From the NCBI RefSeq assembly GCF_024171955.1, contig NZ_JAMTCS010000016.1:1-64000 (forward strand): a stretch of 64,000 bases of DNA, read 5' to 3'. The notes under the pieces are model-generated. The model had not been told where the DNA came from, searched no databases, and saw only the letters and a list, made by a program, of their open reading frames with translations. The DNA comes from Promicromonospora thailandica. Its GTDB lineage: Bacteria > Actinomycetota > Actinomycetes > Actinomycetales > Cellulomonadaceae. Made by a program: the position numbers and the translations under genes. Below are positions 8,972 to 57,930 of the stretch, one piece after another (the first letter of the stretch is position 1; each line of letters opens with the position of its first letter).

Positions 8972-9099
8972 GGTACGGGTGCGTTGCGGTGGCGTGCGCG
9001 GACCGGGGTGCCCGGCCGCGCACGTCACAGCCGCCCGACCCCCGGTGACACCCGCGCGCGTGGGAGAATGTGCGGGCATCTGTCATCGAAGGGAACACT

Positions 9100-43496: not shown

Positions 43497-43524
43497 GGGC
43501 TCCCCGACCCTGTTCGGGGAGCCC
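43497..43524 (+). terminator. hairpin after the phosphoketolase remnant
   Basis: GGGCTCCCCGA (43497-43507) pairs perfectly with TCGGGGAGCCC (43514-43524) around a 6-base loop. It directly follows the remnant and may be the surviving terminator of the former gene. Confidence 0.65.
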
Positions 43525-43548
43525 GCGTCGTCGCTGTGAAAAGTCCTC

Positions 43549-43562
43549 GTGCCGTTGGTCCC
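43549..43562 (-). promoter_or_regulatory. DevR/DosR-like box before the ctpF-like gene
   Basis: Read on the minus strand: GGGACCAACGGCAC. It matches the motif shared by the promoters of this island. It lies exactly 100 bases before the ATG of the DUF1876 remnant, the same spacing (99) as at the intact DUF1876 gene at 55676. Confidence 0.55.
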
Positions 43563-43648
43563 TGGCGTGCGCGGGCCCCACGCGAAATGCTGGGAGCACG
43601 CTCGCCCTCCCACGACGGGCGGTGGACTGACCGACAGGAGGCTCTTCC

Positions 43649-43707
43649 ATGACATGCACCACGACATCGCGCAGATCGAGCACCGACCAGTCCGGCTGCA
43701 CCCGTGA
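43649..43707 (+). pseudogene. DUF1876 remnant with big internal deletion, now a short leader ORF
   Basis: The first bases (ATGACATGCACC) match the start of the intact DUF1876 gene at 55676. The rest (GACATCGCGCAGATCGAGCA onward) matches its end; the middle, over 200 bases, is gone. From ATG 43654 a 17-codon frame remains, ending HDIAQIEHRPVRLHP against DDIAQIEHRPVRLR in the intact protein. Its stop codon overlaps the GTG start of the ATPase gene (GTGA). The ribosome site AGGAGG at 43637-43642 is kept. It may now act as a coupled leader peptide. Confidence 0.75.
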
Positions 43708-46568
43708 GCTCCGGTAGCCCGTCCCGGGCCGATCGCCTGCCGTCCACCTCGTCGACAGACTCGGGTCCGACCGACCCGTCCCTGCGGGAGGTGGCCGACG
43801 TCGCTCGCGAGCTCGGTGTCGATCCCGCGGTCGGGCTCGACGACACCGAGGCCGCGCGCCGGCTGGCCGCCGACGGGCCGAATGAGCTGCGGTCCAAGCC
43901 GCCCGTGCCGCTCTGGCGCAAGGTCCTGGACCAGTTCCGCGATCCGTTGGTGGCCCTGTTGCTGGTGGCCATGGGCATCTCGGTCACCGTCTGGTGGGTC
44001 GAGGGTGCCGACGGCGTACCCGTGGACGCCCTGGTGATCGTCGCCGTGGTCGTGCTCAACGCGGCGCTCGGTCTGGTGCAGGAGAGCAAGGCGGAGAACG
44101 CCGTCGCCGCGCTGCGGTCGATGACCGAGGCGACGTCGACGGTGCTCCGGGAGGGCCGTCGGGTCACCGTGCGGTCGGCCGAGCTGGTTCGCGGGGACGT
44201 GCTCGTGCTGGCCGAGGGCGACGCGGTCGGCGCCGACGCACGCCTCGTGAGCGCGACCGCCCTGCGGGTCCAGGAAGCGTCGTTGACCGGTGAGTCCGAG
44301 GCGGTCCTCAAGGACGCGAGGGTCCTGCCGGCCGCCGCTCCGCTGGGCGACCGGTTCGACATGGTCTACAAGGGCACCGCCGTCGCCCAGGGCGTCGGCC
44401 GGGCCGTCGTGGTGGCCACCGGTATGGCCACGCAGATGGGCGCGATCGCGCGGCTCCTCGACGCCACCGAGGAGGAGGCCACCCCGCTGCAACGGGAGAT
44501 CTCCCGGGTGAGCAAGGTGCTCGGCCTCACGGTGATCGGCATCGCCGTCGTCGTGATGGTCCTCGCCGCGATCGTCAACGACGTCAGTTCGGCGGCCGAC
44601 CTCGTCACCGTCCTGCTGCTGGGCGTCTCGCTCGCCGTGGCCGCCGTCCCCGAGGGGCTGCCCGCCATCCTGTCGGTCGTGCTGGCGGTCGGGGTACAGG
44701 CCATGGCGCGCCGCAAGGCCGTCGTGAAGAAGCTCCATTCCGCGGAGACGCTGGGTTCGGCGTCGGTCATCGCGTCGGACAAGACCGGCACCCTGACCAA
44801 GAACGAGATGACCATCCAGCGGGTCGCCACGGCTTCCGGTGAGGTCGCACTCACCGGCGTGGGCTACCGGCCCGACGGCGAGGTCCGCGCCGGCCCGGAC
44901 ATCGACCGTGGAGGACCGCTCGAGGACGAGCGGCTGCTCCGGGAGGTGGTCATGGTGCTGGGCGGCGGCTCGCTCGCCAACGACGCCCAGCTCGTCGAGG
45001 CCGACGGGGAGTGGACGGTGCAGGGCGACCCCACCGAGGCTGCGTTTCTCGTCGCCGCGCACAAGCTCGCAGGCACGGTGGACCGCGTGGCTGAGTTCGA
45101 GCGCCGGGGAGAAGTCCCGTTCACCTCCGAGCGGAAGCTGATGTCCGCACTCGTCGACCCGCCGGGGGAGGGCGCCTGGGCGCTGGTCACCAAGGGTGCT
45201 CCGGACGTGCTGCTCGCGCGCTGTAGTGCCGTGCAGGTGGGCGAGGAGATCGTTCCGCTGGACGACGAGCGGCGCGCAACGGCGCTCGACGCGGTCGAGC
45301 GGCTGTCGGACAGGGCGTACCGCACACTCGGCGTCGCCTACCGGCGCGTCGCGGAGGGCTTCGGGACGGATCGGCTGGAGGAGCACGAGTCCGACCTGGT
45401 CCACCTCGGCGTGGTGGGCATCATCGACCCGCCCCGGCCCGAGGTCACGGCGGCGGTGGCCGAGGCCCGCCGGGCCGGCATCCGCGTCGTGATGATCACG
45501 GGTGACCACCCGGTCACCGCCACCCGGATCGCGACCGACCTGGGCATCGTCGAGCGTGGGGCACGCGCCGTCACCGGCACGGAGCTGGACCGCCTGGACG
45601 GGCCGGGTCTGCGCGCGGCCGCGCGCACCGTGTCGGTCTACGCCCGTGTGGCTCCGCAGAACAAGCTGCAGATCGTCGACGCGCTCCAGGCCGACGGGCA
45701 CGTGGTCGCGATGACCGGTGACGGCGTCAACGACGCGCCCGCCCTGAAGACCGCCGACATCGGTGTCGCCATGGGCGTCACGGGCACGGAGGTGACCAAG
45801 GAGTCGGCCACGATGATCCTTGGCGACGACAACTTCGCGACGATCGTCGCGGCAGTGCGCCAGGGTCGCGTCATCTTCGACAACATCAAGAAGTTCCTGC
45901 GCTACCTGCTCTCCTCGAACATGGGCGAGGTCTGCACCGTGCTGTTCGGCGTACTCTTCGCCGGGGTGGTCGGCCTGGAAGGCGCGTCCGGCGGCGGGGC
46001 CGTCGTCGTGCCGCTGCTGGCCACGCAGATCCTGTGGATCAACCTCGTCACCGACTCCGGCCCTGCTCTGGCGATGGGCGTCGACCCCGAGACGGACGAC
46101 GTCATGGCCCGGCCGCCGCGAGGCATGCACGAGCGGATCATCGACGCGCGCATGTGGACCGGCGTCCTGAGCATCGGCCTCGTCATGGGCATCGCCACCC
46201 TGCTGACCATCGACATCTTCCTGCCCGGCGGCCTCGTCGAGGGCAGCGACTCGCTCGCCGTGGCTCGCACGGCCGGGTTCACCACGCTCGTGCTAGCACA
46301 GTTGTTCAACGTCTTCAACTCCCGGTCGGAGACGACGAGCGCGTTCCACCGGATGTTCGTGAACCGGTGGCTGTGGGGCGCGGTCGGCCTGGGCCTGCTG
46401 CTCCAGGTCGCCGTCGTCCAGGTGCCGTTCCTCCAGGTCGCCTTCGGGACCGCGAGCCTCGACCTCGCACACTGGGGCGTTGCAGTCGCCATGGCGTCCT
46501 CGGTGCTCTGGTTCGACGAGATCCGCAAGCTCCTCTGGCGGGCGCGGCACCGGGGCGAGGTGGCCTGA
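43704..46568 (+). CDS. P-type cation ATPase, CtpF/SERCA-like (P2)
   Basis: A 954-residue membrane pump. The N-terminal cation ATPase domain precedes LTGESEAV (actuator). The phosphorylated Asp is Asp359 in SDKTGTLTKNEM. The membrane motif VPEGLPAILSVVLAVGVQ is of the calcium type, and the hinge MTGDGVNDAPALK is intact. M. tuberculosis CtpF (Rv1997) is a DosR regulon member of this type. The start GTG 43704 has no ribosome site of its own and overlaps the leader frame, so coupling is likely. Ca2+ is the probable ion, but Na+/K+ types cannot be excluded. Confidence 0.92.
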   Translation: MSSGSPSRADRLPSTSSTDSGPTDPSLREVADVARELGVDPAVGLDDTEAARRLAADGPNELRSKPPVPLWRKVLDQFRDPLVALLLVAMGISVTVWWVEGADGVPVDALVIVAVVVLNAALGLVQESKAENAVAALRSMTEATSTVLREGRRVTVRSAELVRGDVLVLAEGDAVGADARLVSATALRVQEASLTGESEAVLKDARVLPAAAPLGDRFDMVYKGTAVAQGVGRAVVVATGMATQMGAIARLLDATEEEATPLQREISRVSKVLGLTVIGIAVVVMVLAAIVNDVSSAADLVTVLLLGVSLAVAAVPEGLPAILSVVLAVGVQAMARRKAVVKKLHSAETLGSASVIASDKTGTLTKNEMTIQRVATASGEVALTGVGYRPDGEVRAGPDIDRGGPLEDERLLREVVMVLGGGSLANDAQLVEADGEWTVQGDPTEAAFLVAAHKLAGTVDRVAEFERRGEVPFTSERKLMSALVDPPGEGAWALVTKGAPDVLLARCSAVQVGEEIVPLDDERRATALDAVERLSDRAYRTLGVAYRRVAEGFGTDRLEEHESDLVHLGVVGIIDPPRPEVTAAVAEARRAGIRVVMITGDHPVTATRIATDLGIVERGARAVTGTELDRLDGPGLRAAARTVSVYARVAPQNKLQIVDALQADGHVVAMTGDGVNDAPALKTADIGVAMGVTGTEVTKESATMILGDDNFATIVAAVRQGRVIFDNIKKFLRYLLSSNMGEVCTVLFGVLFAGVVGLEGASGGGAVVVPLLATQILWINLVTDSGPALAMGVDPETDDVMARPPRGMHERIIDARMWTGVLSIGLVMGIATLLTIDIFLPGGLVEGSDSLAVARTAGFTTLVLAQLFNVFNSRSETTSAFHRMFVNRWLWGAVGLGLLLQVAVVQVPFLQVAFGTASLDLAHWGVAVAMASSVLWFDEIRKLLWRARHRGEVA

Positions 46569-46578
46569 GGCGCCGGGC

Positions 46579-46598
46579 GACCTGGGCTTCTCCAGGTC
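46579..46598. terminator. short hairpin between convergent genes
   Basis: GACCTGG (46579-46585) pairs with CCAGGTC (46592-46598) over a 6-base loop. It lies between the convergent ATPase gene and the 61-aa gene and is a weak candidate terminator. Confidence 0.45.
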
Positions 46599-46619
46599 AT
46601 CGGGATCCGCGGGCGTGCG

Positions 46620-46805
46620 TCAGCCGCCGAGCGCGGCGAACGCCTCATACACCATGAACGCGGGCCAGACGATGCCCTGTACGACGGCCCAGACGAACTC
46701 CCAGAAACCGTCGGCCTGCTGCCAGAAATAGACCCAGGCACCGAAGATGCCGAGCCCATAGATCGCGCCACCGCCCGCGGCCGCACCTGTGTTCCGGTCT
46801 CCCAT
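46620..46805 (-). CDS. small membrane protein (61 aa)
   Basis: A 61-residue protein, MGDRNTGAAAGGGAIYGLGIFG at the start and then aromatic-rich (WVYFWQQADGFWEFVWAVVQGIVWPAFMVYEAF). It should span or lie in the membrane with two short helices. ATG 46805 is preceded by GGAGG. Similar small Trp-rich proteins are common in actinobacteria, without known function. It is the last gene of a minus-strand group with two universal stress proteins. Confidence 0.75.
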   Translation of the reverse strand: MGDRNTGAAAGGGAIYGLGIFGAWVYFWQQADGFWEFVWAVVQGIVWPAFMVYEAFAALGG

Positions 46806-46910
46806 CACGCCACCTCCCTCTGCCGGGTGGCGCCCGCAAGATGCGGTCGCGGTCCGGTCGTGCCCGTAGTTCTGCACATTGTCTCTCGCCATACACCGAA
46901 CCGGGCTCGG

Positions 46911-46997
46911 TCAGCCGGCCGGATGGCGGTGGGAGTGCACGACCAGGACCGGGCACGCAGCGCCACGTGTGTCGCCGGGAGAAGCTGCCGTCGGACG
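46911..46997 (-). pseudogene. universal stress protein C-terminal fragment
   Basis: In frame directly after the stop of the USP gene at 46998, 28 more codons read RPTAASPGDTRGAACPVLVVHSHRHPAG and a stop. RGAACPVLVVHSHRHPA matches the end of the intact USP at 50495 (RGAPCAVLVAHAHRRPA). It is a leftover of a further USP domain, either deleted or cut off by the stop codon. Confidence 0.7.
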
Positions 46998-47510
46998 TCA
47001 CGTCTTCAGAAACCTTCCGTCCCGTTCGAGGACCAGGGGAGCAGACGGCGCTCGACCGGTGAGCGGGACGATCTCGACGGGGGCTGCGCATGTTGCCATG
47101 ACCGCGCGTGGCACCGGTCCGAGGCGGACCAGGTGCTGCAGGTCGCGGTGGTGCCTGGCCACGACGACGACGTCCGCGTCCTCGCCTGCGCGGTGCAACG
47201 TGTCGACAGCGTCGTCCGTGACGACGGAGAGGTCTACAGAAACTGCCGGGTATGCGGAGGACCAGTCGTCGACCTCGGCCCTGAGCGCACGGGCCTCGCG
47301 CTCATACCTGACACCCTGTGATGAGGGTTGCGCATGCACGACGTGCAGGGCCGAGCCGAGCGTGTCGGCGGTGTCGAACGTGTGGGCGAGAAGCTCGTTG
47401 GTACTTCCCACGGACTTGATACCGACGGCGACCCGGCCGCGGTGGGTCGGTACCCAGCCCTCGTCGACGACGACGACCGGAGCCGCGGTGCGGTTCGGGA
47501 CGGCGGTCAT
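46998..47510 (-). CDS. universal stress protein, single domain
   Basis: A 170-residue USP-like protein: PVVVVDEGWVPTHRGRVAVGIKSVGSTNELLAHTFDTADTLGSALHVVHA, then DVVVVARHHRDLQHLVRLGPVPRAVMATCAAPVEIVP. It looks like the second half of a tandem USP: the PVVVV at its start is how a first USP domain ends. The GxxG(S/T) ATP motif is weak. Its ATG overlaps the stop of the upstream USP gene (ATGA), so the two are coupled and may form one functional unit. Confidence 0.8.
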   Translation of the reverse strand: MTAVPNRTAAPVVVVDEGWVPTHRGRVAVGIKSVGSTNELLAHTFDTADTLGSALHVVHAQPSSQGVRYEREARALRAEVDDWSSAYPAVSVDLSVVTDDAVDTLHRAGEDADVVVVARHHRDLQHLVRLGPVPRAVMATCAAPVEIVPLTGRAPSAPLVLERDGRFLKT

Positions 47511-48496
47511 GGCCAGTTCCCGGCGTGAAGCGGGGCGATGGTGAGGTTTGCCGGGCGGCGCGCCCCCGGCGAGGGCGGTGGTGTGGCGCTCTCGGGTGCC
47601 GTGCCGGTGTCGGATGCGGTCTGCCGTGCCGCGTGGGTGTGGACCACCAGCACGGGGCAGGGTGCCGAACGCAGCAGGGCGCCGGAGACGCTGCGCAGCA
47701 GGCGGCCGGTCAGCGTCCAGTGGCTGTTGCCGCCGACCACCACCAGGTCGTCCGGGGTCAGGCCGTCCAGCAGCGCCGCGACGGCGTCGCCCGGTGGGTT
47801 GGTCGTGGTGCAGGTGACGCCCGGGTAGCGTGCCGACCAGCGGGCCGCTCTGCCGGCGACCGCGGTGGCGACGACGCCCTGCCAGGAGTCCGCGGACGGA
47901 TCCCGCCGAAGCGCGGCGTCCGTGATCGGGTCGCTGCCGGTCGCGTGCAGCACCTCGAGGGGGCATCCGCGAGCGACGGCTTCGGTGAAGGCAGTGGTCC
48001 ACAGCTCGGGTTCCTCGCTCCGCCCGGCGCCCATCCGGATCCTGGCGGGGGCGCCGCCGGAGGCGCCCTCGGGAACTACGGCGACCGCGCCGGTGGTGTG
48101 TGCCGCGAGCACGGACGAGGTCGAGCCCAGCAGGGCCCGGTCGAACGCACCGAGGCGGCGCCGCGCCACCACGACGAGGTCCGACGACCGGGAGAGCTGT
48201 GCCAGGACGTGGGCTGCCGTCCCAGGCAGAGCGACGGTCTGGACGGTGCGGTTGCCCGGGCGTCGTCCGTCGAGCCGGTCCATCGCGACGCGCAGCGCGT
48301 CGTGGGCCTGCGTGCGAGCGTCCTCCACGAGGCGGCTGGTGCCCGGTCCGGGTTCAGGCGGGGTGGCGTACGTGGACACGACGGTCAGCCGGGTGTCGTG
48401 GGCGTCGGCGGTGCGGGCGGCCCAGTCGAGCGCGACCAGGCTCTCCTCGGAGCCGTCGACCCCGACGGTGACGCTTCTGTACCAGGTGGTGTTCAT
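47507..48496 (-). CDS. universal stress protein, tandem domain
   Basis: A 329-residue protein with two USP domains. Domain 1 begins SVTVGVDGSEESLVALDWAARTA and has VVVARRRLGAFDRALLGSTSSVLAAHTTGAVAVVP. Domain 2 ends VVVGGNSHWTLTGRLLRSVSGALLRSAPCPVLVVHTHA, with a variant nucleotide loop. Such proteins bind ATP and are DosR-regulated in M. tuberculosis (Rv1996, Rv2005c, Rv2623). ATG 48496 is 7 bases after GGAG. Two DevR-like boxes lie about 110-140 bases upstream. Confidence 0.9.
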   Translation of the reverse strand: MNTTWYRSVTVGVDGSEESLVALDWAARTADAHDTRLTVVSTYATPPEPGPGTSRLVEDARTQAHDALRVAMDRLDGRRPGNRTVQTVALPGTAAHVLAQLSRSSDLVVVARRRLGAFDRALLGSTSSVLAAHTTGAVAVVPEGASGGAPARIRMGAGRSEEPELWTTAFTEAVARGCPLEVLHATGSDPITDAALRRDPSADSWQGVVATAVAGRAARWSARYPGVTCTTTNPPGDAVAALLDGLTPDDLVVVGGNSHWTLTGRLLRSVSGALLRSAPCPVLVVHTHAARQTASDTGTAPESATPPPSPGARRPANLTIAPLHAGNWP

Positions 48497-48602
48497 GATC
48501 ATTCTCCGGTGCGTTCGTGTCAGAGGCCGAACGGCTCCGATCGGTGAGCGGTGCATCGTGCACTGTTGCTCCTAGGACACGCCTAGCCGGCGGGCCCGGG
48601 CA

Positions 48603-48638
48603 GGGGCGAACGTCCCGCCTCGGTTCGGCGAAGGTCCC
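48603..48638 (-). promoter_or_regulatory. tandem DevR/DosR-like boxes before the USP operon
   Basis: On the minus strand: GGGACCTTCGCCGA (48625-48638) and GGGACGTTCGCCCC (48603-48616), starts 22 bases apart. Both fit the shared motif of the island. They precede the operon of two USP genes and the 61-aa gene. Confidence 0.65.
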
Positions 48639-48651
48639 CGCCGCCCCTGGT

Positions 48652-49542
48652 TCAGTGCGGGGGCGACGGGACGACCGCCACCGGGCACGCCGCGTGGTAG
48701 ATCATCGCCTGGCTGGTCGACCCGAGGAGCAGGCCGCGGAACCCGCCGCGCCCTCGTGATCCGACCACGAGCAGCTGGGCGGCACCGGCCCGGGCCAGCA
48801 GCACCTGGGCAGGCCCGCCGTGGGCGATCACCGGCTCCACCGTGACGTCGGGGTGCTCGGCGTGTGCCGCCGACAGCCACGTCGTCAGCTCCTCCGCGGC
48901 GTGCTGCTGGACCAGGTCCGTCGCCGTCGTGAGCTCCCAGGAGGTGGTCAGCGGGAGGTCGCTCCACGCGTGCACGGCGACCAGCGGGACGGAGCGGGCG
49001 GCCGCCGCGGCGAACGCGAACCGGACGGCGTCCCGGTTGGCGGGTGACCCGTCCACACCCACGACCACCGGGCCGTCCTGCCGCACGATCTCGTCGTCGT
49101 CGCCGCGGACCACCACCACCGGGCAGTGCCCGTGAGTGGCGACGGCGACGGCGACGGAGCCGACGACCAGCCCCGTGAACCCGCCCAGTCCACGCGAGCC
49201 CAGCACGATCAGCTGGGCGGCGGCCGACCTGCCGATCAGCCGGGCAGCGGCCGACCCTTCGACCAGCGAGGAGCCGGTCGGTACGTCGGGTGCGGCCTCG
49301 CGCGCGACGCTCTCGGCGTCGGCCAGCCACTGACGCGCCTGCGCGACGAGCGCGTCCTCGTAGGCCCCCAGTGCGGCCGCGTGCGGTACGGAGGCCGGGA
49401 CGGGCGTCCAGACGTGCAGCAGGCTCAGCCTGGTGTTGCGGCGGGCCGCCTCGAGGGCGGCCCATCGCACCGCCCGGGTCGACGACGGCGATCCGTCGAT
49501 GCCCACGACCACCGGGTCGGGTGTCGTCGTCGATGTGCTCAC
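48652..49542 (-). CDS. universal stress protein, tandem domain
   Basis: A 296-residue two-domain USP with both ATP loops intact: VVVGIDGSPSSTRAVRWAALEAARR with GSRGLGGFTGLVVGSVAVAVATHGHCPVVVV, and VVVGVDGSPANRDAVRFAF with GSRGRGGFRGLLLGSTSQAMIYHAACPVAVV. It resembles Rv2623-type ATP-binding USPs. GTG 49542 has AGGAGG 5 bases upstream and is preferred; an in-frame ATG at 49563 lies in the stop region of the nitroreductase gene. It is the last gene of the operon begun by the USP at 51427. Confidence 0.92.
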   Translation of the reverse strand: MSTSTTTPDPVVVGIDGSPSSTRAVRWAALEAARRNTRLSLLHVWTPVPASVPHAAALGAYEDALVAQARQWLADAESVAREAAPDVPTGSSLVEGSAAARLIGRSAAAQLIVLGSRGLGGFTGLVVGSVAVAVATHGHCPVVVVRGDDDEIVRQDGPVVVGVDGSPANRDAVRFAFAAAAARSVPLVAVHAWSDLPLTTSWELTTATDLVQQHAAEELTTWLSAAHAEHPDVTVEPVIAHGGPAQVLLARAGAAQLLVVGSRGRGGFRGLLLGSTSQAMIYHAACPVAVVPSPPH

Positions 49543-49559
49543 GGGTTCCTCCTGGCTGC

Positions 49560-50498
49560 TCATGGCCCGACCGGTCGGCGGGGCGTGTGCTGGGGCAGCG
49601 CCTGGTAGCCGAGCCGCATGACCATCTGCGGTGCGCCCTGGAGCCGCAGCGCCCGACGCAAATCGTGCCTCGTCGTCGGATTCTCCAGCACGGTGGTCGC
49701 GAACGACGCGTGGACGAGGTAGGTGGTCGCGACCAGGAGCACGTGCTCGAGCGCCTGCCCGGCGGTGATCCACGCGGCGGCGTCGTCGCCTGGCGTGACG
49801 AGGACGCCCATCGTGCTGCGGCGCTCGAACCGTGCCGCCCCGGCAGCCGCGGCGAACCGCCGTACCGGTGCCCCTGCATCCGTCGGCACCGGCCCGAGCA
49901 GGCTGCGTGGGATGCCGTCGTCACGGCTCGGGTCGACGGCGGTCCAGGCCGCCTCCTCGGCCGTCGCCGCGGGGTCCTCCGCCGCGAGGGCCTCGGCGTG
50001 ACGCACCAGGTCGATGACGACCTCGCGCGCCGGGTCGGAGTGCTGGACGAGTCGCAGTGTGGCGCCCTCCGACTCGGCTGCGGCGTGGAGGGCGATCACC
50101 GCGTCGGTGAACAGGGGCTGGTCCTCGAACGGGAGCCGGGACGTGGTGCGGCGCCCGATCGCCGTGGCCAGGTCGAGCTCGTACGGGGTGGGAGCGGGTC
50201 CGGGCTCGAACGTCAGCTCGGCGACGAGGAGCTCGTCGTCCGGGTCCGGGAGTATTCGCACGGTCGCGACCAGACGCTCCTGGCGTGCGGCTACGCGGGC
50301 GTTGAGCAGGAACGCTCCGCAGCTGATCAGCATTTCCCGGCCGCGCGGATCGGTGTGCTGCAGCTGGCGTGCCGGGTCTGCGCGGAGGGTGACCGTGTCC
50401 CGTGCACGGGTCGCCTGCCAGGGCTGGGTGTTCGCGATGCTCGGCGCGGCGGCAGCTGCGCGCAGGACGCGGCCGATCTGCGGGTCGAGCGTCCTCAT
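49560..50498 (-). CDS. Acg-like nitroreductase family protein
   Basis: A 312-residue protein of the Acg (Rv2032/Rv3131) branch of nitroreductases: RAAAAAPSIANTQPWQ at the start, ATAIGRRTTSRLPFEDQPL in the middle, and ERRSTMGVLVTPGDDAAAWITAGQALEHVLLVAT near the end. In M. tuberculosis these are classical DosR targets thought to sequester FMN rather than reduce substrate. It is translationally coupled to the USP gene upstream (ATGA). Confidence 0.9.
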   Translation of the reverse strand: MRTLDPQIGRVLRAAAAAPSIANTQPWQATRARDTVTLRADPARQLQHTDPRGREMLISCGAFLLNARVAARQERLVATVRILPDPDDELLVAELTFEPGPAPTPYELDLATAIGRRTTSRLPFEDQPLFTDAVIALHAAAESEGATLRLVQHSDPAREVVIDLVRHAEALAAEDPAATAEEAAWTAVDPSRDDGIPRSLLGPVPTDAGAPVRRFAAAAGAARFERRSTMGVLVTPGDDAAAWITAGQALEHVLLVATTYLVHASFATTVLENPTTRHDLRRALRLQGAPQMVMRLGYQALPQHTPRRPVGP

Positions 50499-51427
50499 GG
50501 CGAGTCGTCCTCAGCCTCGTTCCCACCCAGCGGCACCGAGGCGGGGCGGCGGTGGGCGTGCGCCACGAGGACCGCGCACGGCGCACCCCGCAGCACCGCG
50601 TCGGGGACGCTACGGAGCATCCGGCCCAGCAGCGGCTGGTGTCTCCGCCCGCCGACGACGACGAGGTCGTCGGGCGTGAGGCCGCGTAGCAGCACTGTTG
50701 CCGGGTCTCCGCGACCGACCACGATCGTGCAGCTCACCTCGGGGTACTTCTCCGACCAGCGGGCGACGCGGTCGGCCAGGTCTGCCTTGGCGGCCTCGCG
50801 CCACGACGCGGCGATGGGGTCCATCTCGGGGAACGACGACGACAGGGCGTCGGCGTCCGTCACGTGCACCACCTCCAGCGGGCGGCCGCGTGCCGCCGCT
50901 TCGGCGAACGCCGCACCCAGGACGTCCGGTTCGTCGTGCAGGCCCACGCCCACCCGGATCCGCCGCGGGTCACCGGTCGAGGCCCCGGCCGGCACCACGG
51001 CAACGGCTCCCGGTGCGGTGGCTGCCAGCGTGGCGGACGTGGAGCCGAGCACCACGCGATCGATCCGCCCAAGGCCTCGGCGGCCGACCACGACCAGGCC
51101 ACATGTCCGGGACCGGCGGCCCAGCTCGTAGGCGGCGTTGCCCTGCACCACGTCGATCTTCGCGTGCTGTCCGTGCACCCGGCCGCCGGCCCGGTGCTCG
51201 GCGAGCCACTCGTGTGCGGTGTCGGCGGCCCCTCGTGCCTGAGCGCGTATCTCCCCGATCAGGCCGCCGATCCCGGGGTCGGGGGTGATGGGCACCCCGT
51301 AGGCCGCGACGACCGTGAGGCTCGCCTCGTGCAGGTCGGCGGCGCGTGCCGCCCACTCGAGGGCGGCGAGGCTCTCCGCCGACCCGTCGACCCCGACGAC
51401 GATGCCGTCGTACCAGTTGATGCTCAT
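50495..51427 (-). CDS. universal stress protein, tandem domain
   Basis: A 310-residue USP, close in sequence to the one at 47507. It begins MSINWYDGIVVGVDGSAESLAALEWAARAADLH and includes VVVGRRGLGRIDRVVLGSTSATLAATAPGAVAVVPAG and GLTPDDLVVVGGRRHQPLLGRMLRSVPDAVLRGAPCAVLVAH. ATG 51427 has AGGAGG 6 bases upstream. It heads the operon USP - nitroreductase - USP and diverges from the sensor kinase; a nearly perfect DevR-like box lies between. Confidence 0.92.
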   Translation of the reverse strand: MSINWYDGIVVGVDGSAESLAALEWAARAADLHEASLTVVAAYGVPITPDPGIGGLIGEIRAQARGAADTAHEWLAEHRAGGRVHGQHAKIDVVQGNAAYELGRRSRTCGLVVVGRRGLGRIDRVVLGSTSATLAATAPGAVAVVPAGASTGDPRRIRVGVGLHDEPDVLGAAFAEAAARGRPLEVVHVTDADALSSSFPEMDPIAASWREAAKADLADRVARWSEKYPEVSCTIVVGRGDPATVLLRGLTPDDLVVVGGRRHQPLLGRMLRSVPDAVLRGAPCAVLVAHAHRRPASVPLGGNEAEDDSP

Positions 51428-51502
51428 GGTCGTCCTCCTTCGTGACCCCCAGGACACCACCGCACCGGTGGGCCCAGGCAGAGACAGGAGGCCCGAGCAT
51501 GC

Positions 51503-51516
51503 GGGACCAAGGTCCC
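51503..51516. promoter_or_regulatory. DevR/DosR-like box, divergent USP/kinase promoter
   Basis: GGGACCAAGGTCCC has perfect GGGACC/GGTCCC arms. It is the most symmetric copy of the motif. It lies 76 bases before the USP operon and 41 bases before the kinase start, so it could serve both. Confidence 0.7.
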
Positions 51517-51556
51517 TCGCAGGCCATCACGCGCTACCGTGACCGCGGGAGGCACC

Positions 51557-53227
51557 ATGGACCGAAGAGACGCCCCGCGCGACCGCACCGAGCTGCTCCT
51601 GGAGGCGGTCGTCACGGTCAGCCGTGGCCTGGACCTGGAGACGGTGCTCCACCACATCGTCGAGACGGCCGTCACGCTGGTCGATGCTCGGTACGGCGCC
51701 CTCGGGGTGCTCGGTGACGACGGCCGTATCGCCCGGTTCCTGACCGTCGGGCTCAGCGACACGCAGATCCACGCGATCGGTCCCTACCCGACCGGTCACG
51801 GCGTGCTCGGCGAGCTCATCCGGCACCCGGTGCCGCTGCGCCTGCACGACCTGTGCGAGCACCCGGTCTCCGTGGGCTTCCCCGCCCACCACCCGCCGAT
51901 GCACACCTTCGTGGGCATGCCGCTCCAGATGCACGGCGCACCGTTCGGCAACCTCTACCTCACGGACAAGCGCGGCGGTGGCGACTTCACCGCCGACGAC
52001 GAGCGGGTGCTGGAGGCGCTCGCGTCGGCCGCGAGCGTCGCGATGGAGAACGCGCGCCTCTACGACGACGCCCAGCTGCGGGAGCGCTGGGCGCGGGCCA
52101 ACGACCGGATCTCACGTCATGTGCTGGCCGGCTACTCGCCCGACGACGTGCTGAGCCTGATCGGCAGCGAGGCGCGGGAGGTCGCCGACGCCGACCTGAC
52201 GGCGGTGTCGCTGCCGGACCCGGAGACCGGTCGTCTGGTCCTGCGTGCGGCGGCCGGGTTGGGGGCCGAGGACCAGGTGGGCGCCGTGCTGCCCGCGGAC
52301 GGGACGTTCGCCACGATCGCGTTCCGCGAGGGGGCACCGATGGTCACCCACGACGCGTCGACGGACGAACGCGCCGGGTTCTCGCTGCCGCTCCCGGTCG
52401 AGCTCGGCCCGCTGGCGGCGTGGCCGCTCGGCGAGTCCGGGAGCGTCCGCGGCGTCCTCGTGGCGGCCCGCAGCCGGGGGCGGCAAGCCTTCTCCCCGCT
52501 CGTGGTCGAGGCGCTCGGCGCGTTCGCTGCCCAGGCTGCTGTGGCCCTCGAGCTGGCTGAGGGCCGAGCGGACGCCGAACGCCTGGTCCTGCTGCGCGAC
52601 CGCGAACGCATCGCGCGCGACCTGCACGACCTCGCGATCCAGCGTCTCTACGCGACCGGCCTCTCGCTGCAGCGGGTGGCACGGACGGCACCGCCGGAGG
52701 TGGCCGAGCAGGTAGCCGCAGCGGTCGACGAGGTGGACGAGACCATCGCCCTGGTCCGGACCACGATCTATCGGCTGCAGCCGGGTGAGCAGGCAGGAGG
52801 TCCCGCCGGCCGGCGCGTGGGCCTGCGCTCCCGCGTGATCACGGAGGTCGACGCCGCGGGTGTCTCGCTCGGGTTCCGTGTCCGGCTGCGGTTCGAGGGT
52901 GCGGTGGACACCCTTGTACCGCCGGACGCGGCCGACCACGTGGTCGCCGTGGTACGCGAAGGGCTCTCGAACGTTGCCCGGCACGCGTCGGCGACCCAGG
53001 CGGAGGTCCGCCTGTCGGCAGCCGACGACCTGGTGCTCTCGGTGACGGACGACGGCACGGGCATCTCGTCGGACGCGCCGCGCAGCGGGCTGCACAACCT
53101 GAGGCGGCGTGCGGAAGAGCTCGGTGGTTCGTTCGTGACCGAGGCAGCGTCCCCGGGTGCCGACCGGGTGGGCACGCGGCTGGTGTGGCGTGTGCCGCTG
53201 TCCGCGGATGGTCAGAGGCCGGTGTGA
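51557..53227 (+). CDS. DevS/DosT-like heme GAF sensor histidine kinase
   Basis: A 556-residue cytoplasmic kinase with two GAF domains (residues about 30-165 and 185-335), a HisKA_3 dimerisation domain with His357 (RIARDLHDLAIQRL), and a HATPase domain (VREGLSNVARHASAT, VTDDGTGI, GLHNLRRRAEELGG). In GAF-A, GFPAHHPPMHTF aligns with M. tuberculosis DevS GFPPYHPPMRTF, placing the heme ligand His149 at His112. The distal Tyr171 corresponds to Tyr134 (GNLYLTDK). It is therefore expected to sense O2, NO or CO through heme. ATG 51557 follows GGGAGG. The response regulator is convergent, 16 bases beyond. Confidence 0.93.
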   Translation: MDRRDAPRDRTELLLEAVVTVSRGLDLETVLHHIVETAVTLVDARYGALGVLGDDGRIARFLTVGLSDTQIHAIGPYPTGHGVLGELIRHPVPLRLHDLCEHPVSVGFPAHHPPMHTFVGMPLQMHGAPFGNLYLTDKRGGGDFTADDERVLEALASAASVAMENARLYDDAQLRERWARANDRISRHVLAGYSPDDVLSLIGSEAREVADADLTAVSLPDPETGRLVLRAAAGLGAEDQVGAVLPADGTFATIAFREGAPMVTHDASTDERAGFSLPLPVELGPLAAWPLGESGSVRGVLVAARSRGRQAFSPLVVEALGAFAAQAAVALELAEGRADAERLVLLRDRERIARDLHDLAIQRLYATGLSLQRVARTAPPEVAEQVAAAVDEVDETIALVRTTIYRLQPGEQAGGPAGRRVGLRSRVITEVDAAGVSLGFRVRLRFEGAVDTLVPPDAADHVVAVVREGLSNVARHASATQAEVRLSAADDLVLSVTDDGTGISSDAPRSGLHNLRRRAEELGGSFVTEAASPGADRVGTRLVWRVPLSADGQRPV

Positions 53228-53243
53228 GCGTCCGCAGGGCGCG

Positions 53244-53897
53244 TCACGCGGGTCGGTGCCGGTCCTGGTCGAGGCGCGCGGCGAGCACCGCCGCCTGGGC
53301 ACGGCGTTCGAGGCCGAGCTTGGCGAAGATGCTGGAGACGTAGTTCTTGACCGTCTTCTCGGCGAGGAACATCTCGTCGCCGATCTGCCGGTTGGTCAGT
53401 CCGTGCCCGATGAGGGCGAGGATACGGCGTTCCTGGTCGGTCAGGGTGGCCAGCGGATCGGGCTCGCGGTGGGCGTCGGCGCGGATGCGCTCCATGACGC
53501 GGGCCGCCGCGCGGGGGTCGAGCGTCGAGCCACCGGCGGCGACGGTGAGCACCGCCTGGACGAGGTCGGTACCGCGCACCTGCTTGAGCACGTAGCCCGC
53601 CGCGCCCGCCAGGATCGCGTCGTAGAGCGCCTCGTCGTCGGAGAACGAGGTGAGCATGAGGCAGGGCAGGTCCGGCATGCGGGAGCGCAGCTCGCGGCAC
53701 ACGCTCACGCCGTCGCCGTCGGGCAGGCGCACGTCGAGCACCACGACGTCGGGGGACAAGGCGGGCACACGGGCGAGCGCCTCGCGGGCCGTGCCCGCCT
53801 CGCCGACCACGCGTACGCCGGGTTCCGACTCGAGCAGGTCGGCGACGCCGCGGCGCACCACTTCGTGATCGTCCACGAGGAACACCCGTACGTCCAT
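53244..53897 (-). CDS. DevR/DosR-like response regulator (NarL/LuxR family)
   Basis: A 217-residue regulator, the length of M. tuberculosis DevR. The receiver domain has the acidic pocket (LVDDHEVV), phospho-acceptor Asp55 ([11 protein letters not shown]) and Lys105 (GYVLKQV). The HTH reads [36 protein letters not shown]; Lys181, Lys184 and Asn185 correspond to the DNA-reading Lys179, Lys182 and Asn183 of DevR. It is the likely partner of the neighbouring kinase and binder of the GGGACC boxes. It is downstream of doxX on the minus strand, so it may be autoregulated through the boxes before doxX. Confidence 0.93.
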
Positions 53898-53913
53898 GGC
53901 TCCTACCGTAGCT

Positions 53914-53951
53914 GTGGTGCCTGTCCCGGTCACGACCGGGACAGGCACCAC
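53914..53951 (-). promoter_or_regulatory. long hairpin between doxX and devR-like genes
   Basis: A perfect 18-bp stem (53914-53931 with 53934-53951) with a 2-base loop fills the 65-base gap between the DoxX gene and the regulator. There is no T run. It may terminate or attenuate part of the doxX transcript and set the regulator level. Confidence 0.7.
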
Positions 53952-53962
53952 GGGACCGGTGC

Positions 53963-54547
53963 TCATCGCAGGAACGGGAACCGCTGGACCAGCGGCAGGC
54001 GTGCCCACCAGCGGCCGAGGCCGAGCGTGTCGCCGGCGAGGACCGCGGCGAGGCCGACGAGCAGGACGGCGTCGACGAGGTGGTAGTCCACGAACGGGTT
54101 GTTCTCCAGCGGCAGCGACGCGAGCCACATGAGCAGCATGAGCAGCGCGCCGGTCGCGGCGGCCAGCCGCATGCCGATGCCCAGGGCCAGCGCGAGGCCG
54201 ATGCCGAGCAGGCCGAGCATGAACAGCCAGTCGATGACGGCGCTGCCGGCCAGCGAGCCGAAGAACTCGCCGAACGGGCCCTGGACGTTGCTGAGGTAGC
54301 CCACGGTGGGCGACCCGCCGTTGATCCACGCCCGCTCGGGCGGGGTGGCGAGGTTCCAGCCGAACAGCTTGTCGCCGAACGCCCAGAGGAACTCGACGGC
54401 GAGCAGCAGCCGGACGCCCGCGAAGCTGTACCGGGCGACGGCGCTGCGGGTGACGGCGTCGACCGCCGTGGTGCTCGTGCCGGTGGCGCGGGCGCCGGCG
54501 GCGGGTCCGTGCGCCAGGGGTGCGGAGTGGTGGCTGACGGAGCTCAT
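53963..54547 (-). CDS. DoxX family membrane protein
   Basis: A 194-residue protein with four predicted helices: [24 protein letters not shown] (residues about 40-65), [40 protein letters not shown], and [21 protein letters not shown]. DoxX-type proteins are linked to redox balance and membrane-associated oxidoreductase complexes. ATG 54547 is preceded by GGGAGG. Two DevR-like boxes lie about 100-140 bases upstream. Confidence 0.87.
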
Positions 54548-54647
54548 GATGATCCTCCCGGAGATGCGCCGGAACGGTTCCGGCTGCCTGTGACAACGTT
54601 CCCGTGAGTGGCACCCCCCGGCGCAGGGCCACCTGGCTCCTGTCGGC

Positions 54648-54685
54648 GGGACCTTGGTCCTGTGCCCGGGCGGGACAATGGCCCG
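54648..54685 (+). promoter_or_regulatory. tandem DevR/DosR-like boxes before doxX-devR
   Basis: GGGACCTTGGTCCT (54648-54661) and GGGACAATGGCCCG (54672-54685), starts 24 bases apart, lie between the doxX start and the end of the SDR gene. They suggest control of doxX and the regulator gene by the regulator itself. Confidence 0.65.
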
Positions 54686-54696
54686 GGCGGGCCGTC

Positions 54697-55467
54697 CTAC
54701 CAGGTGGAGTCGCCGCGGATGATCGCGTCGGCGCCGCCGTCGACGAAGACGACCTGCCCGCACAGGTGGGTGTTCTTCTCGCCGACGAGCCAGCTGATGA
54801 GATGTGCGGGTACCTCTGGCCGCATGAAGCCGTTCAGCGGCATCGGCACCGCGGCGGCCATCGCTGCGCGCTGGATCTCGGTGCCGATCATGCCCGCCAC
54901 CATCGGGGTCTCCACGACCCCGGGCGCGACGGCGTTGAGCGGGATGCCCGCGCCTGCCCACTGCGCGCCGGGCGCGGTCCTGCGCAGCCACCGGCACAGT
55001 GCCGCCTTGCTGCTGGAGTAGATCAGCCCGTGCTCCTGCGCCTGGACGAGCTTGACCGCCCGGTCCAGGGCGCCCGGCTCGTCTCCGGCGAGACACCGGT
55101 CGACCAGTTCCGCGTCCGTGGGCAGGAGGCTCGCCATCGAGGAGGTGGCCGCGGCACGGGGCGTCCGCGAGCGCGTGAGCAGCGGCAGCAGCCCCTCGAG
55201 CGTGGCGACCGTGCCGAAGAAGTTGACCGCGACGTCGTCGGGGGACCGGTGGGCCACGCCGGCGTTGGCGACCACGCCGTCGATGGTGCTGCGGCGGGAC
55301 CGCACCTGGTCGATCATCGTGGCTCGGCCGTCCGGCGTGCGCAGGTCGGTCTCGATCTCGGCGTCGTGGGTGTCCACACCGATGACCCGGTCGCCACGCT
55401 GTTCCAGCAGGCGCAGGGTCGCCCTGCCGATTCCTGAGGCCGAGCCGGTGACGACGATGGTGCGCAT
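54697..55467 (-). CDS. short-chain dehydrogenase/reductase (3-alpha-HSD/carbonyl reductase-like)
   Basis: A 256-residue SDR: cofactor motif [20 protein letters not shown], Asp in [14 protein letters not shown] for NAD preference, VVANAGV, and the active site [11 protein letters not shown] (YxxxK). The form without a long N-terminus, and the FVDGGADA end, resemble 3-alpha-hydroxysteroid dehydrogenase/carbonyl reductases. It is divergent from the DUF1876 gene and shares its box-bearing promoter. Confidence 0.88.
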
Positions 55468-55553
55468 GAGAATCCCTCCGAGTGGTAGGCCCTGCCCGCC
55501 GGGTGCTCACCGGGGTGATTCTCACGCTAGGCAGCCGGCCCGAGCGTGCAACC

Positions 55554-55590
55554 GTGCCGACCGTCCCGGGGTGCCCGGGCCGTTGGTCCC
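55554..55590 (-). promoter_or_regulatory. tandem DevR/DosR-like boxes, SDR/DUF1876 divergent promoter
   Basis: Minus-strand reading: GGGACCAACGGCCC (55577-55590) and GGGACGGTCGGCAC (55554-55567), starts 23 bases apart. They lie 99 bases before the DUF1876 ATG and about 90 before the SDR start. Confidence 0.65.
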
Positions 55591-55675
55591 TGGTGGTTGC
55601 CTCGGGTGCGCGACACCGTGGGACCACTCGCACTCCCACGACGGGAAGCGCGGTCGGACCGAAAGGAGAAGGACG

Positions 55676-55954
55676 ATGACACACACCTGGAACGTCGCCA
55701 TCCGCTTGTTCGACGCGGACGACGTCGAACGCGACGGCACGCTCACCGCTGCGCACGCCGTGCTGACGACGTCGAGCGGGACGTCGCTCGAGGGGCACGG
55801 GCGCGCCCTGCGCAACCCGCAGGACCCGCAGGTCCGGGAGATCGGTGAGGAGCTGGCTGCCGCCCGTGCTCTGCGTGACCTGGCCGACAGGCTGTTGCGC
55901 GCGACGTCGGACGACATCGCGCAGATCGAGCACCGCCCCGTTCGCCTGCGGTAG
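55676..55954 (+). CDS. DUF1876 protein (Rv1738/Rv2632c-like)
   Basis: A 92-residue protein with the DUF1876 pattern: MTHTWNVAIRLFDADDVERDGTLTAAHAVL, RNPQDPQVREIGEELAAARALRDLADRLL, and the C-terminal IAQIEHRPVRLR. Rv1738 is one of the most strongly DosR-induced proteins, and its structure resembles ribosome-hibernation factors, so a role in slowing translation under hypoxia is plausible. ATG 55676 has AAGGAGAAGG upstream. A deleted copy with the same promoter lies at 43549-43707. Confidence 0.9.
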   Translation: MTHTWNVAIRLFDADDVERDGTLTAAHAVLTTSSGTSLEGHGRALRNPQDPQVREIGEELAAARALRDLADRLLRATSDDIAQIEHRPVRLR

Positions 55955-55985
55955 CCACCAGAACGAGCAACAGGAGGTGAGGGCG

Positions 55986-56513
55986 ATGCGTGCCCTCGTG
56001 GTCTACGAGTCCATGTACGGCAACACGAAGCTGGTCGCGCAGGCGATCGGCGAGGGTATCGAGGAGTCGATGCATGCCGACGTGGTCGAGGTGACGGTGG
56101 CACCCACCACCGTGACGGCCGATGTGACGCTGCTGGTCGTGGGAGGACCGACGCATGCCTTCAGCATGTCCTGGCCCTCGACCCGGCGCGACGCCGCGCA
56201 GCAGGCGGCGTCGATCATCTCCCGTGGCCGGGGTATCCGGGAGTGGCTGGGTGCCTTGCCGGGTACGAGGAGGGAGACGGAGGCCGCGACCTTCGACACC
56301 CGCACGACGTCGAGGATCACGGGGTCGGCCGCTCGTGCGGCGAGCCGCCGGCTCGACCGGCTCGGGTTCCCGTTGGTCGCCACGCCCGTGAGCTTCCGGG
56401 TGGCGGACGCCCTGGGCCCGCTGGTCGCCGGGGAGCTGGACCGGGCCCGGTCGTGGGGGAGGGAGCTGGGTGCCGAGGTCGCCGCACGCCGGCCGAGCCG
56501 GCCGGTCTCCTGA
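55986..56513 (+). CDS. flavodoxin-domain protein
   Basis: A 175-residue protein starting MRALVVYESMYGNTKLVAQAIGEGI, the FMN phosphate-binding loop (SMYGNT) of flavodoxins, followed by VTLLVVGGPTHAFSMSWPSTR. The C-terminal 80 residues are less typical and Arg-rich. It may carry electrons in the hypoxic metabolism coded here, for example to pyruvate formate-lyase activase. It follows the DUF1876 gene by 31 bases, in the same operon. ATG 55986 follows GGAGGTGAGGGCG. Confidence 0.87.
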   Translation: MRALVVYESMYGNTKLVAQAIGEGIEESMHADVVEVTVAPTTVTADVTLLVVGGPTHAFSMSWPSTRRDAAQQAASIISRGRGIREWLGALPGTRRETEAATFDTRTTSRITGSAARAASRRLDRLGFPLVATPVSFRVADALGPLVAGELDRARSWGRELGAEVAARRPSRPVS

Positions 56514-56522
56514 TCGGCGTCG

Positions 56523-56594
56523 ATGGCTCTGCCCCCCGATGACCAGCAGGGCACCACGGTCCAGACCCTGGAGCAGGAGATCGACCGGGTCCCG
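56523..56594 (-). pseudogene. universal stress protein internal fragment
   Basis: On the minus strand, RDPVDLLLQGLDRGALLVIG and the next few residues (GQSH) resemble the GDPATVLLRGLTPDDLVVVGG segment of the intact USPs in this island. The match covers about 24 residues and has no continuation or start. It looks like a relic of a deleted USP gene. Confidence 0.5.
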
Positions 56595-56651
56595 GCAGTG
56601 TGCCACCGCCGTCCGGGCACGTGAGGGCGCCGTTCGCGCGGGCCGTGTGCA

Positions 56652-56709
56652 GGGACCAGGGTCATCGAGCTCTCAGGACCTTCCCTGCAGCACGGGGGAC
56701 CTTCGTCCC
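56652..56709 (+). promoter_or_regulatory. three tandem DevR/DosR-like boxes before the alcohol dehydrogenase gene
   Basis: GGGACCAGGGTCAT (56652-56665), AGGACCTTCCCTGC (56675-56688) and GGGACCTTCGTCCC (56696-56709). Starts are 23 and 21 bases apart, about two helix turns. The last is nearly symmetric. The gene start is 88 bases after the third box. Confidence 0.7.
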
Positions 56710-56796
56710 TGCCACGTGCAGGCCGTGCCGAGAGACCGTGGAACTGCCGCCACCGGGCGGTTGCCATTTCAGAATCACCGTCCGAACGGAGCCGTC

Positions 56797-57807
56797 ATGA
56801 GAGCCGCAGTCGTCACCGACTTCACCGCCCCCCTGGAGGTCCGGGAGATTCCCGTCCCGGAGCCCGGACCCGGCGAGGTGCTCGTCCGGATCGAGGCCAG
56901 CGGGCTGTGTCACACGGACATCCACGCCGCCCACGGCGACTGGCCGGTCAAGCCGACCCCGCCGTTCGTCCCTGGGCACGAGGGCGTCGGCCGCATCGAG
57001 AAGCTCGGCCCCGGCGTGACGAGCCGCTCCGTCGGTGAGCGCGTGGCGATCGCCTGGCTCGGCAGCGCATGCGGTGAGTGCCGTTACTGCATCGCCGGCT
57101 GGGAGACGCTGTGCGAGCAGCAGCAGAACTCCGGCTACTCGGTCGATGGTGCGTTCGCCGAGTACGCGGTGGTCCGGGCAGGGTTCGCCGTGCCAGTCCC
57201 CGACGGTGTGACTTCCGCGGACGCCGCACCGCTGAGCTGCGCGGGCGTGACCACCTACAAGGCCGTCAAGGTCGCCCGTGTGTCGCCCGCGGAGACCGTG
57301 GCCGTGTTCGGCATCGGCGGGCTGGGGCACCTCGCGCTGCAGTACGCGCGGATCGCCGGTGCGTTCGTGATCGCGGTCGACGTCGAGGACCACAAGCTGG
57401 AGCTGGCCAGCCGCCTCGGTGCGGACCACGTGGTCAACGCCGCCCGCGAGGACCCGGTCGAGGCCATCCAGCGGCTCGGCGGCGCGGACGTCGCGGTGGC
57501 GCTTGCCGTCTCGTCGTCCTCGTTCGACCAGGCCTTCCACTCGCTGCGCAGGGGCGGTCGGCTGGTCTGTGTGGCGCTGCCCGCCGACGGCACGATCCAG
57601 CTGCCGATCTTCGACACGGTGCTCAAGGGCATCTCGGTGATCGGGTCGATCGTCGGTACGCGGAACGACCTCGCGGACGTGTTCGCGCTGCACGCGGCCG
57701 GCCGCACCGAGGTCGTGGCCGTGGAGCGCAAGCTCGACGAGGTCAACGAGTCCTTCGCGGACGTGCTGGCCGGTCGGGTGCCTGCCCGCATCGTCTTCGG
57801 CTTCTGA
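56797..57807 (+). CDS. zinc-dependent alcohol dehydrogenase, AdhP-like
   Basis: A 336-residue MDR alcohol dehydrogenase. Catalytic zinc ligands are Cys38 (GLCHTD) and His61/Glu62 (GHEGVG); structural zinc cysteines are at 92, 95, 98 and 106. The NAD fold has FGIGGLGHLALQYAR and Asp in VAVDVEDHK. It would reduce acetaldehyde to ethanol, disposing of NADH during fermentation with the following pyruvate formate-lyase. Three DevR-like boxes lie upstream. The start is ATG 56797. Confidence 0.93.
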   Translation: MRAAVVTDFTAPLEVREIPVPEPGPGEVLVRIEASGLCHTDIHAAHGDWPVKPTPPFVPGHEGVGRIEKLGPGVTSRSVGERVAIAWLGSACGECRYCIAGWETLCEQQQNSGYSVDGAFAEYAVVRAGFAVPVPDGVTSADAAPLSCAGVTTYKAVKVARVSPAETVAVFGIGGLGHLALQYARIAGAFVIAVDVEDHKLELASRLGADHVVNAAREDPVEAIQRLGGADVAVALAVSSSSFDQAFHSLRRGGRLVCVALPADGTIQLPIFDTVLKGISVIGSIVGTRNDLADVFALHAAGRTEVVAVERKLDEVNESFADVLAGRVPARIVFGF

Positions 57808-57851
57808 GCCCGACACGGCCGCCGCAACCACGGTGGTCACCCAGAACCCGC

Positions 57852-57865
57852 AGGACGTCGGCCCG
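57852..57865 (+). promoter_or_regulatory. weak DevR/DosR-like box before pflB
   Basis: AGGACGTCGGCCCG fits the motif less well than the others. It lies about 65 bases before the pyruvate formate-lyase ATG. The pfl genes may alternatively be read through from the alcohol dehydrogenase promoter. Confidence 0.4.
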
Positions 57866-57930
57866 GGAGCGGCCCCAGAACGAACCCGGTCCGGCGTCCC
57901 GCGCCACCCACGACCACGCAGGAGCGGACC

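Follow-up and report, generated by a model that had tools for sequence, protein, structure and literature searches.

A probable DosR/OsdR-type regulon clustered with its regulator gene in Promicromonospora thailandica, with a pyruvate formate-lyase unit behind its strongest box

The DosR (DevR) regulon of Mycobacterium tuberculosis includes universal stress proteins (USPs), an Acg/Rv3131-type enzyme and an Rv2632c-like protein, and its genes are scattered, unlike those of the island described here. No pyruvate formate-lyase (PFL) is known from that regulon; PFL is an oxygen-sensitive enzyme, which in enterobacteria stands under FNR/ArcA-type control. The gathering of such genes, which a sequence-only reading of the present DNA had pointed out, is already described for Streptomyces coelicolor: of the 22 genes SCO0198–SCO0219, 20 are reported to be controlled from eight OsdR sites in the vicinity of osdR (PMC5069765). 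The OsdR sites tabulated there, 26 in number, are predictions, some of which were tested by gel shift (PMC5069765). For S. lividans, a putative PFL (SCO0206), the alcohol dehydrogenase SCO0199 and USPs are reported as co-expressed with OsdR, and a truncated PFL activase is counted among the co-expressed genes (PMC6302529).

The DNA analysed here, which we call the window, comprises positions 1–64000 of one contig; the genome measures 5.38 Mb and is spread over 24 contigs. Gene families were assigned by Pfam and NCBIfam scans, with several start codons picked by eye, and the island was bounded at 43401–57930 (14.5 kb) for the counting of sites (Table 1). Its P-type ATPase stays under the cut-offs of the Ca-type ATPase models in the NCBIfam scan, and the short ORF behind it is 96% identical to an ORF (14617–14799) in the sister island L111. 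The gene list of the sequence-only reading holds for the USPs, the Acg-like nitroreductase and the DUF1876 protein, is weak for DoxX, which falls under its cut-off, and had missed the alcohol dehydrogenase, PFL, activase, short-chain dehydrogenase and flavodoxin-like protein. The DoxX-like protein has tblastn matches in nine of the named devR loci examined, which are the best 80 among 538 relatives, and the PFL displays Cys-Cys at 423–424 and the radical Gly735 (motif positions). Elsewhere in the window, the 16-mer CGGGACGACCGTCCGC occurs four times in the ORF 9070–11550 (at 9556, 9802, 9982 and 10015), apparently as a repeated coding stretch.

Table 1. Genes and DosR-type boxes of the island and its fermentation unit. 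Box scores are from matrix (b), built free of window sequence, and ranks are among the sites of the 64-kb window.
Feature	Coordinates	Strand	Evidence or score
DosR-type box upstream of P-type ATPase	43548..43563		score 14.0, rank 5
P-type cation ATPase	43704..46568	+	Pfam; NCBIfam TIGR01494 above cut-off; "CtpF-like" is the label of the sequence-only reading
Short ORF, membrane-like by eye	46620..46811	-	no Pfam match
Universal stress protein, single domain	46998..47510	-	Pfam Usp; start by eye
Universal stress protein, two domains	47507..48496	-	Pfam Usp, 2 stretches; start by eye
DosR-type box upstream of USP 47507-48496	48602..48617		score 14.4, rank 4 (both matrices)
Weak possible secondary box, 22 bp from 48603 box	48624..48639		score 0.6; tandem spacing
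Universal stress protein, two domains	48652..49542	-	Pfam Usp, 2 stretches; start by eye
Acg-family (Rv3131-like) FMN-binding nitroreductase	49560..50498	-	NF047509 266.9 bits, cut-off 199
Universal stress protein, two domains	50495..51427	-	Pfam Usp, 2 stretches
Palindromic DosR-type box between divergent USP and kinase genes	51502..51517		score 17.0, rank 3
DosS/DosT-like GAF-GAF-HisKA_3 sensor kinase	51557..53227	+	Pfam, structure matches, residues
DevR/DosR-like NarL-family response regulator	53244..53897	-	Pfam, structure matches, residues
DoxX-like protein	53963..54547	-	Pfam DoxX 18.6 bits, under cut-off 23.6; start by eye
DosR-type box upstream of DoxX-like gene and regulator	54647..54662		score 12.1, rank 7
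Weak possible secondary box, 24 bp from 54648 box	54671..54686		score 2.5; tandem spacing
Short-chain dehydrogenase	54697..55467	-	Pfam
DosR-type box, 23 bp from 55577 box in tandem	55553..55568		score 10.0, rank 9
DosR-type box between divergent short-chain dehydrogenase and Rv2632c-like genes	55576..55591		score 17.1, rank 2
Rv2632c-like (DUF1876) protein	55676..55954	+	Pfam PF08962 94.6 bits
Flavodoxin-like protein	55986..56513	+	Pfam Flavodoxin_1 27.5 bits, cut-off 25
DosR-type box with the top score in the window, upstream of alcohol dehydrogenase	56695..56710		rank 1 (both matrices)
AdhP-type zinc alcohol dehydrogenase	56797..57807	+	NF006940 355.1 bits, cut-off 344
Pyruvate formate-lyase (PFL)	57931..60213	+	TIGR01255 1131.4 bits, cut-off 994.2
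PFL-activating radical-SAM enzyme	60210..61043	+	TIGR02493 263 bits, cut-off 231.75

The regulator combines Pfam Response_reg and GerE domains, and the best of its 255 matched PDB sequences is M. tuberculosis DevR (3c3w; E 2e-81). Its Lys181, Lys184 and Asn185, cited earlier as conserved DNA-contacting residues, indeed align with DevR Lys179, Lys182 and Asn183, which are described as contacting bases (PMC4082495). The kinase has the Pfam architecture GAF-GAF-HisKA_3-HATPase, and the best solved match of its first GAF domain is DosT (2vzw; E 1.8e-46), followed by the heme GAF domains of DosS. In this domain, His112 and Tyr134 occupy the positions of the proximal His (His149/His147) and distal Tyr (Tyr171/Tyr169) of DosS/DosT, and Gly50 aligns with DosT Gly85, the position at which DosS has Glu87; we take these residues to be equivalent to the numbered heme-pocket residues by a hand derivation from an assumed start of the DosS construct. 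The roles of the pocket residues, including the Glu87/Gly85 position, are described for DosS and DosT in PMC4082495. No NCBIfam model lies above its cut-off for either protein, the best being MadR for the regulator (192.8 against 300) and MadS for the kinase (84.1 against 500). Down to their DNA-contact and heme-pocket residues, the two proteins agree with the DosR/DevR and DosT/DosS families, respectively, and the kinase is predicted to bind heme and oxygen.

All twelve 14-mer boxes of the sequence-only reading are present (43549, 48603, 48625, 51503, 54648, 54672, 55554, 55577, 56652, 56675, 56696 and 57852), and the core of the box is identical to published OsdR sites (e.g., the site before SCO0216; PMC5069765); what had been called the island's own box is the published OsdR/DevR element. 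Scanned as the consensus proposed with them, the box shows no excess: at up to two mismatches the window holds 17 matches vs a shuffle mean of 13.0, with 17 of 100 shuffles reaching 17, and at up to one mismatch the genome holds 34 vs 64 for the reversed control; a more degenerate pattern likewise has fewer matches genome-wide than its reversed counterpart (36 vs 48). Its exact matches number three in 5.38 Mb, all of them in the island from which the consensus was itself derived. Because these scans gave no excess over controls, we used matrices instead, namely matrix (a), from the 26 OsdR sites tabulated for S. coelicolor (Table 1 of PMC5069765), and matrix (b), from 141 sites in non-PFL promoters of the 80 named devR loci (the best 80 of 538 relatives) with no window sequence. 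The training set of matrix (b) may include a few divergent promoters common to a USP and a PFL, and the genomes scored with it may share species with the named training loci.

Matrix (a) ranks the boxes 56696, 55577, 48603, 43549, 51503 and 55554 as 1, 2, 4, 7, 8 and 15 of the window and the remaining six at 122 or lower; with matrix (b), 56696, 55577, 51503, 48603, 43549, 54648 and 55554 rank 1, 2, 3, 4, 5, 7 and 9. As a motif, seven of the twelve thus stand among the best nine of matrix (b), and six among the best fifteen of matrix (a). Against an own-genome background of 24 sampled 20-kb stretches (480 kb), matrix (b) finds five sites of at least 14 in the 14.5-kb island vs one in the entire sample, and ten of at least 8 vs 2.45 expected; the excess with matrix (a) is modest (three sites of at least 12 vs 0.21 expected). 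Of 500 symmetric column permutations of matrix (b), ten reach the island count at threshold 10; at threshold 7 as many as 140 of 500 do so, and no enrichment over the permuted matrices is seen. The observation made in the sequence-only reading is largely right, though confirmed only in part for its boxes. With DevR as the top match of the regulator, DosT and DosS as those of the kinase, and window-free matrices that find six and seven of the twelve boxes, its placement of the locus as a DosR/DevR-type regulon island is supported. Sites of 9.0–12.7 also occur elsewhere in the genome (L139–L145) and are possible regulon members beyond the island; a site of 12.5 at 60414–60429 lies inside the activase gene and was left out of the promoter boxes.

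Tandem spacing helps to sort the weaker boxes. Pairs of sites in the 80 devR loci (the best 80 of 538) number 33 at 20–22 bp, five at 10–17 bp and none at 18–19 bp, and 54% of 336 strong sites in 93 loci have a partner scoring at least 0 at an offset of 20–24 bp, as compared with 7–16% in the same test at five other offset ranges. Given this enrichment, the weak boxes 48625 (22 bp) and 54672 (24 bp) are plausible secondary sites; 56675, which lies 21 bp from 56696, scores too low (−4.9) to be taken as one. Box 56652 is doubtful (6.6), while 56675 and 57852 are unsupported, the latter standing alone without a tandem partner at a score of 0.8, on which it was rejected as a PFL promoter box.

Downstream of the strongest box, 56696, lie the genes for the alcohol dehydrogenase, the PFL and its activase. 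The gap between dehydrogenase and PFL is 123 bp on the same strand, and a scan for one kind of terminator found no terminator-like site in it, where shuffles average 1.1. Because the region upstream of the PFL itself holds no good box (best 4.7, matrix (b)), control of this gene would rest on read-through from the dehydrogenase promoter. The arrangement is consistent with expression of the PFL from that promoter, and dehydrogenase, PFL and activase are a predicted operon.

The closest named locus, in Promicromonospora sp. AC04, has a regulator of 89% identity, as judged among the best 80 of 538 confirmed relatives, a selection that may leave out near-identical genomes. Across 13 genomes of the genus, including the present one, the regulator is found in 11 at E 1e-70 and a PFL in four, lying less than 18 kb from the regulator in three of these and on a different contig in the fourth. 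Matches to the kinase, regulator, DoxX-like protein and USPs occur together in eight of the ten genus genomes with a fetched regulator region; the regulator alone matched in that of G077, and in G101 the contig ends beside it. Two genomes (G031 and G104) retain much of the larger island set, and in G104 alcohol dehydrogenase, PFL and activase follow one another as in the window, preceded by a site that scores 14.3 with matrix (a). The content of the island thus varies within the genus. Farther afield, a PFL match is found in the fetched flanks of six named devR loci out of 80 (again the best among 538 relatives), from Streptomyces (four), Sphaerisporangium and Herbidospora. A search of 394 genomes of the class yielded 43 others with a PFL, 33 of which have the regulator at 1e-70, and by hand count PFL and regulator lie within 30 kb on one contig in 13 of the 43.

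For the wider link between box and enzyme, we scored 122 PFL upstream regions of 450 bp, comprising 76 from the family (80 genomes with a PFL minus G013, G026, G045 and G065, the last for want of a known gene start), 44 genes of the 43 other class genomes (G206 contributes two) and two extra genus genomes (G102 and G104). With matrix (b) at a threshold of 8, a site is present in 89 of the 122, that is 48 of 64 with a close DevR and 41 of 58 without one; permutation means are 8.5 and 7.7, none of 300 permutations reaches the observed counts, and control regions 0.9–1.4 kb upstream have such sites in 15 of 62 and two of 57, respectively. Matrix (a) finds sites in 30 of 64 and 23 of 58, each count being reached by one of 300 permutations. 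The 58 regions without a close DevR were rejected as a negative control, the box being as frequent in them. At a threshold of 9, the site is retained in 76 of the 122, with its center 50–100 bp before the PFL start in 46 and within 50–200 bp in 65. In the genus g9 (L092–L095, L099 and L101), the best PFL site, GGGGAGGACGATCCCT, lies 17–40 bp upstream and is probably the ribosome-binding region rather than a box; six g9 genomes counted at 8 drop out at 9. Inside the family, the box of at least 9 is present in 16 of 30 genomes with DevR, lower than expected if DosR-type regulators control the PFL, and, among those without DevR, in 29 of 38 with a kinase match at 1e-40 and four of ten with neither, a kinase comparison that is borderline (Fisher P 0.05 at 9 and 0.30 at 10).

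The family genomes with a PFL and no DevR at 1e-70 number 51, and 49 of these have none at 1e-55 either; 48 were scored, of which 33 carry a PFL box of at least 9 and 38 have a kinase match at 1e-40. Eight of the 38 kinase matches (G015, G017, G019, G039, G040, G070, G082 and G092) start at residue 168–171 and miss the heme domain. Twelve kinase loci were fetched, chosen for matches covering the heme domain: in 11 of them a regulator of 42–45% identity, with a Lys-Thr-Val-Lys-Asn stretch, lies within about 1.6 kb, and 11 of the 12 kinases have a His-Pro-Pro-Met stretch, which is His-Pro-Lys-Met in the twelfth. This distant heme-GAF-type kinase and its regulator (L262–L272) may constitute a second DosR-type subfamily, and the pair could explain the PFL box in many such genomes. 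By hand count, the box of at least 9 also occurs without a kinase match at 1e-40 in G004, G012, G029 and G046, and with a match past the heme domain in seven of the above eight genomes (all except G039); these 11 family genomes speak against a single DosR-type explanation for all.

In our view, the genes of the locus very probably form a two-component regulon of the DosR/OsdR type, assembled around the gene for its regulator. Drawing on the observed gene families, conserved residues, enrichment and spacing of the boxes and conservation in relatives, we posit that the first GAF domain of the kinase probably carries a heme by which oxygen or related gases are sensed, and that the kinase, upon falling oxygen, would phosphorylate the regulator. 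The latter is predicted to recognize palindromes resembling GGGACC-N2-GGTCCC in six intergenic regions, where they frequently form tandem pairs spaced by two helical turns, and to switch on the adjacent genes, so that the island would respond to hypoxia. The output would comprise the USPs, the Acg-type flavin enzyme, the cation pump and small dormancy-type proteins, along with the alcohol dehydrogenase-PFL-activase unit read from box 56696. A general stress or redox regulon that uses a DosR-like pair for another signal, such as nitric oxide, carbon monoxide or redox state, appears unlikely, yet has to be reckoned with: the presence of PFL, an enzyme sensitive to oxygen, and a Gly as in DosT where DosS has Glu87 favor oxygen, whereas PMC4082495 attributes to DosS and DosT a response to several gases, and the S. 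lividans OsdR set is reported to rise with protein production, hypoxia being unconfirmed there (PMC6302529).

It is improbable that the boxes belong to a different NarL-family paralogue while the adjacent DevR-like protein controls something else. The genome has 46 LuxR/GerE domain matches to choose from, and the 33 of 48 DevR-less family genomes that keep a PFL box, 11 of them with no kinase match (four) or one past the heme domain (seven), would accord with another regulator; against this, 11 of the 12 selected kinase loci have a nearby distant regulator that keeps Lys-Thr-Val-Lys-Asn, the box of at least 9 in other families (44 PFL genes) accompanies DevR (25 of 34 vs two of ten without it), and the window boxes occupy the intergenic spaces around the DevR-like gene itself. 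That the boxes are chance products of a palindromic composition at 73% G+C we regard as extremely improbable, although the consensus is not enriched in the window at two mismatches and is rarer genome-wide than its reversed control at one, since two window-free matrices pick the boxes out of 64 kb, sites of at least 14 number five in the island vs one in 480 kb, and the tandem spacing is sharply peaked.

The island offers a compact model for studying how DosR-type systems act at low oxygen in a bacterium other than the tubercle bacillus, since its likely targets lie beside the regulator. Should the PFL boxes prove to be real targets, they would tie the DosR family to fermentation, besides dormancy and respiration, and would change the view of the family's original role. 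A broader reading, which we hold tentatively and at less than an even chance, is that DosR-type heme-kinase systems are a general actinobacterial fermentation switch, in which a close DevR pair, or a distant pair with the same DNA-contact residues, acts on a box mostly 50–200 bp before PFL, the mycobacterial dormancy regulon being a derived offshoot from which the fermentation enzyme was lost, or to which it was never added. We lowered its standing because of the 11 family genomes with a box and no heme-domain kinase match.

Among known systems, the PFL and activase resemble those of facultative anaerobes in that both equivalog cut-offs are passed (TIGR01255 and TIGR02493), and differ from them in being placed behind a DosR-type box. 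The matches listed in a search of titles and abstract starts of the open-licence literature include no paper on DosR-type boxes before PFL genes across actinobacteria; among these matches, PMC4601167 carries both search terms. With the M. tuberculosis DosR/DevR regulon, the island shares the regulator, the heme kinase, USPs, the Acg/Rv3131-type enzyme, the Rv2632c-like protein and a related palindromic box, and with the DosT/DosS sensors the proximal His, the distal Tyr and the DosT-like Gly at the Glu87 position, a likeness known here from sequence. It is likewise broadly akin in gene content to the OsdR/OsdK island of S. coelicolor and S. lividans (SCO0167–SCO0219), which is described as having a DevR-type regulator, a sensor kinase, USPs, a nitroreductase, a zinc alcohol dehydrogenase (SCO0199), a putative PFL (SCO0206) and GGGACCTTCGGCCC-type boxes, many of them clustered around the regulator (PMC5069765; PMC6302529). 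Unlike that island, the present one has no nitrate reductase gene among its scanned ORFs, and its activase frame is open, where the S. lividans counterpart is described as a putative pseudogene that retains an N-terminal fragment (PMC6302529). The Streptomyces-like arrangement is thus already known; less expected are the fermentation unit and the wider, computationally predicted link between DosR-type boxes and PFL across actinobacteria.
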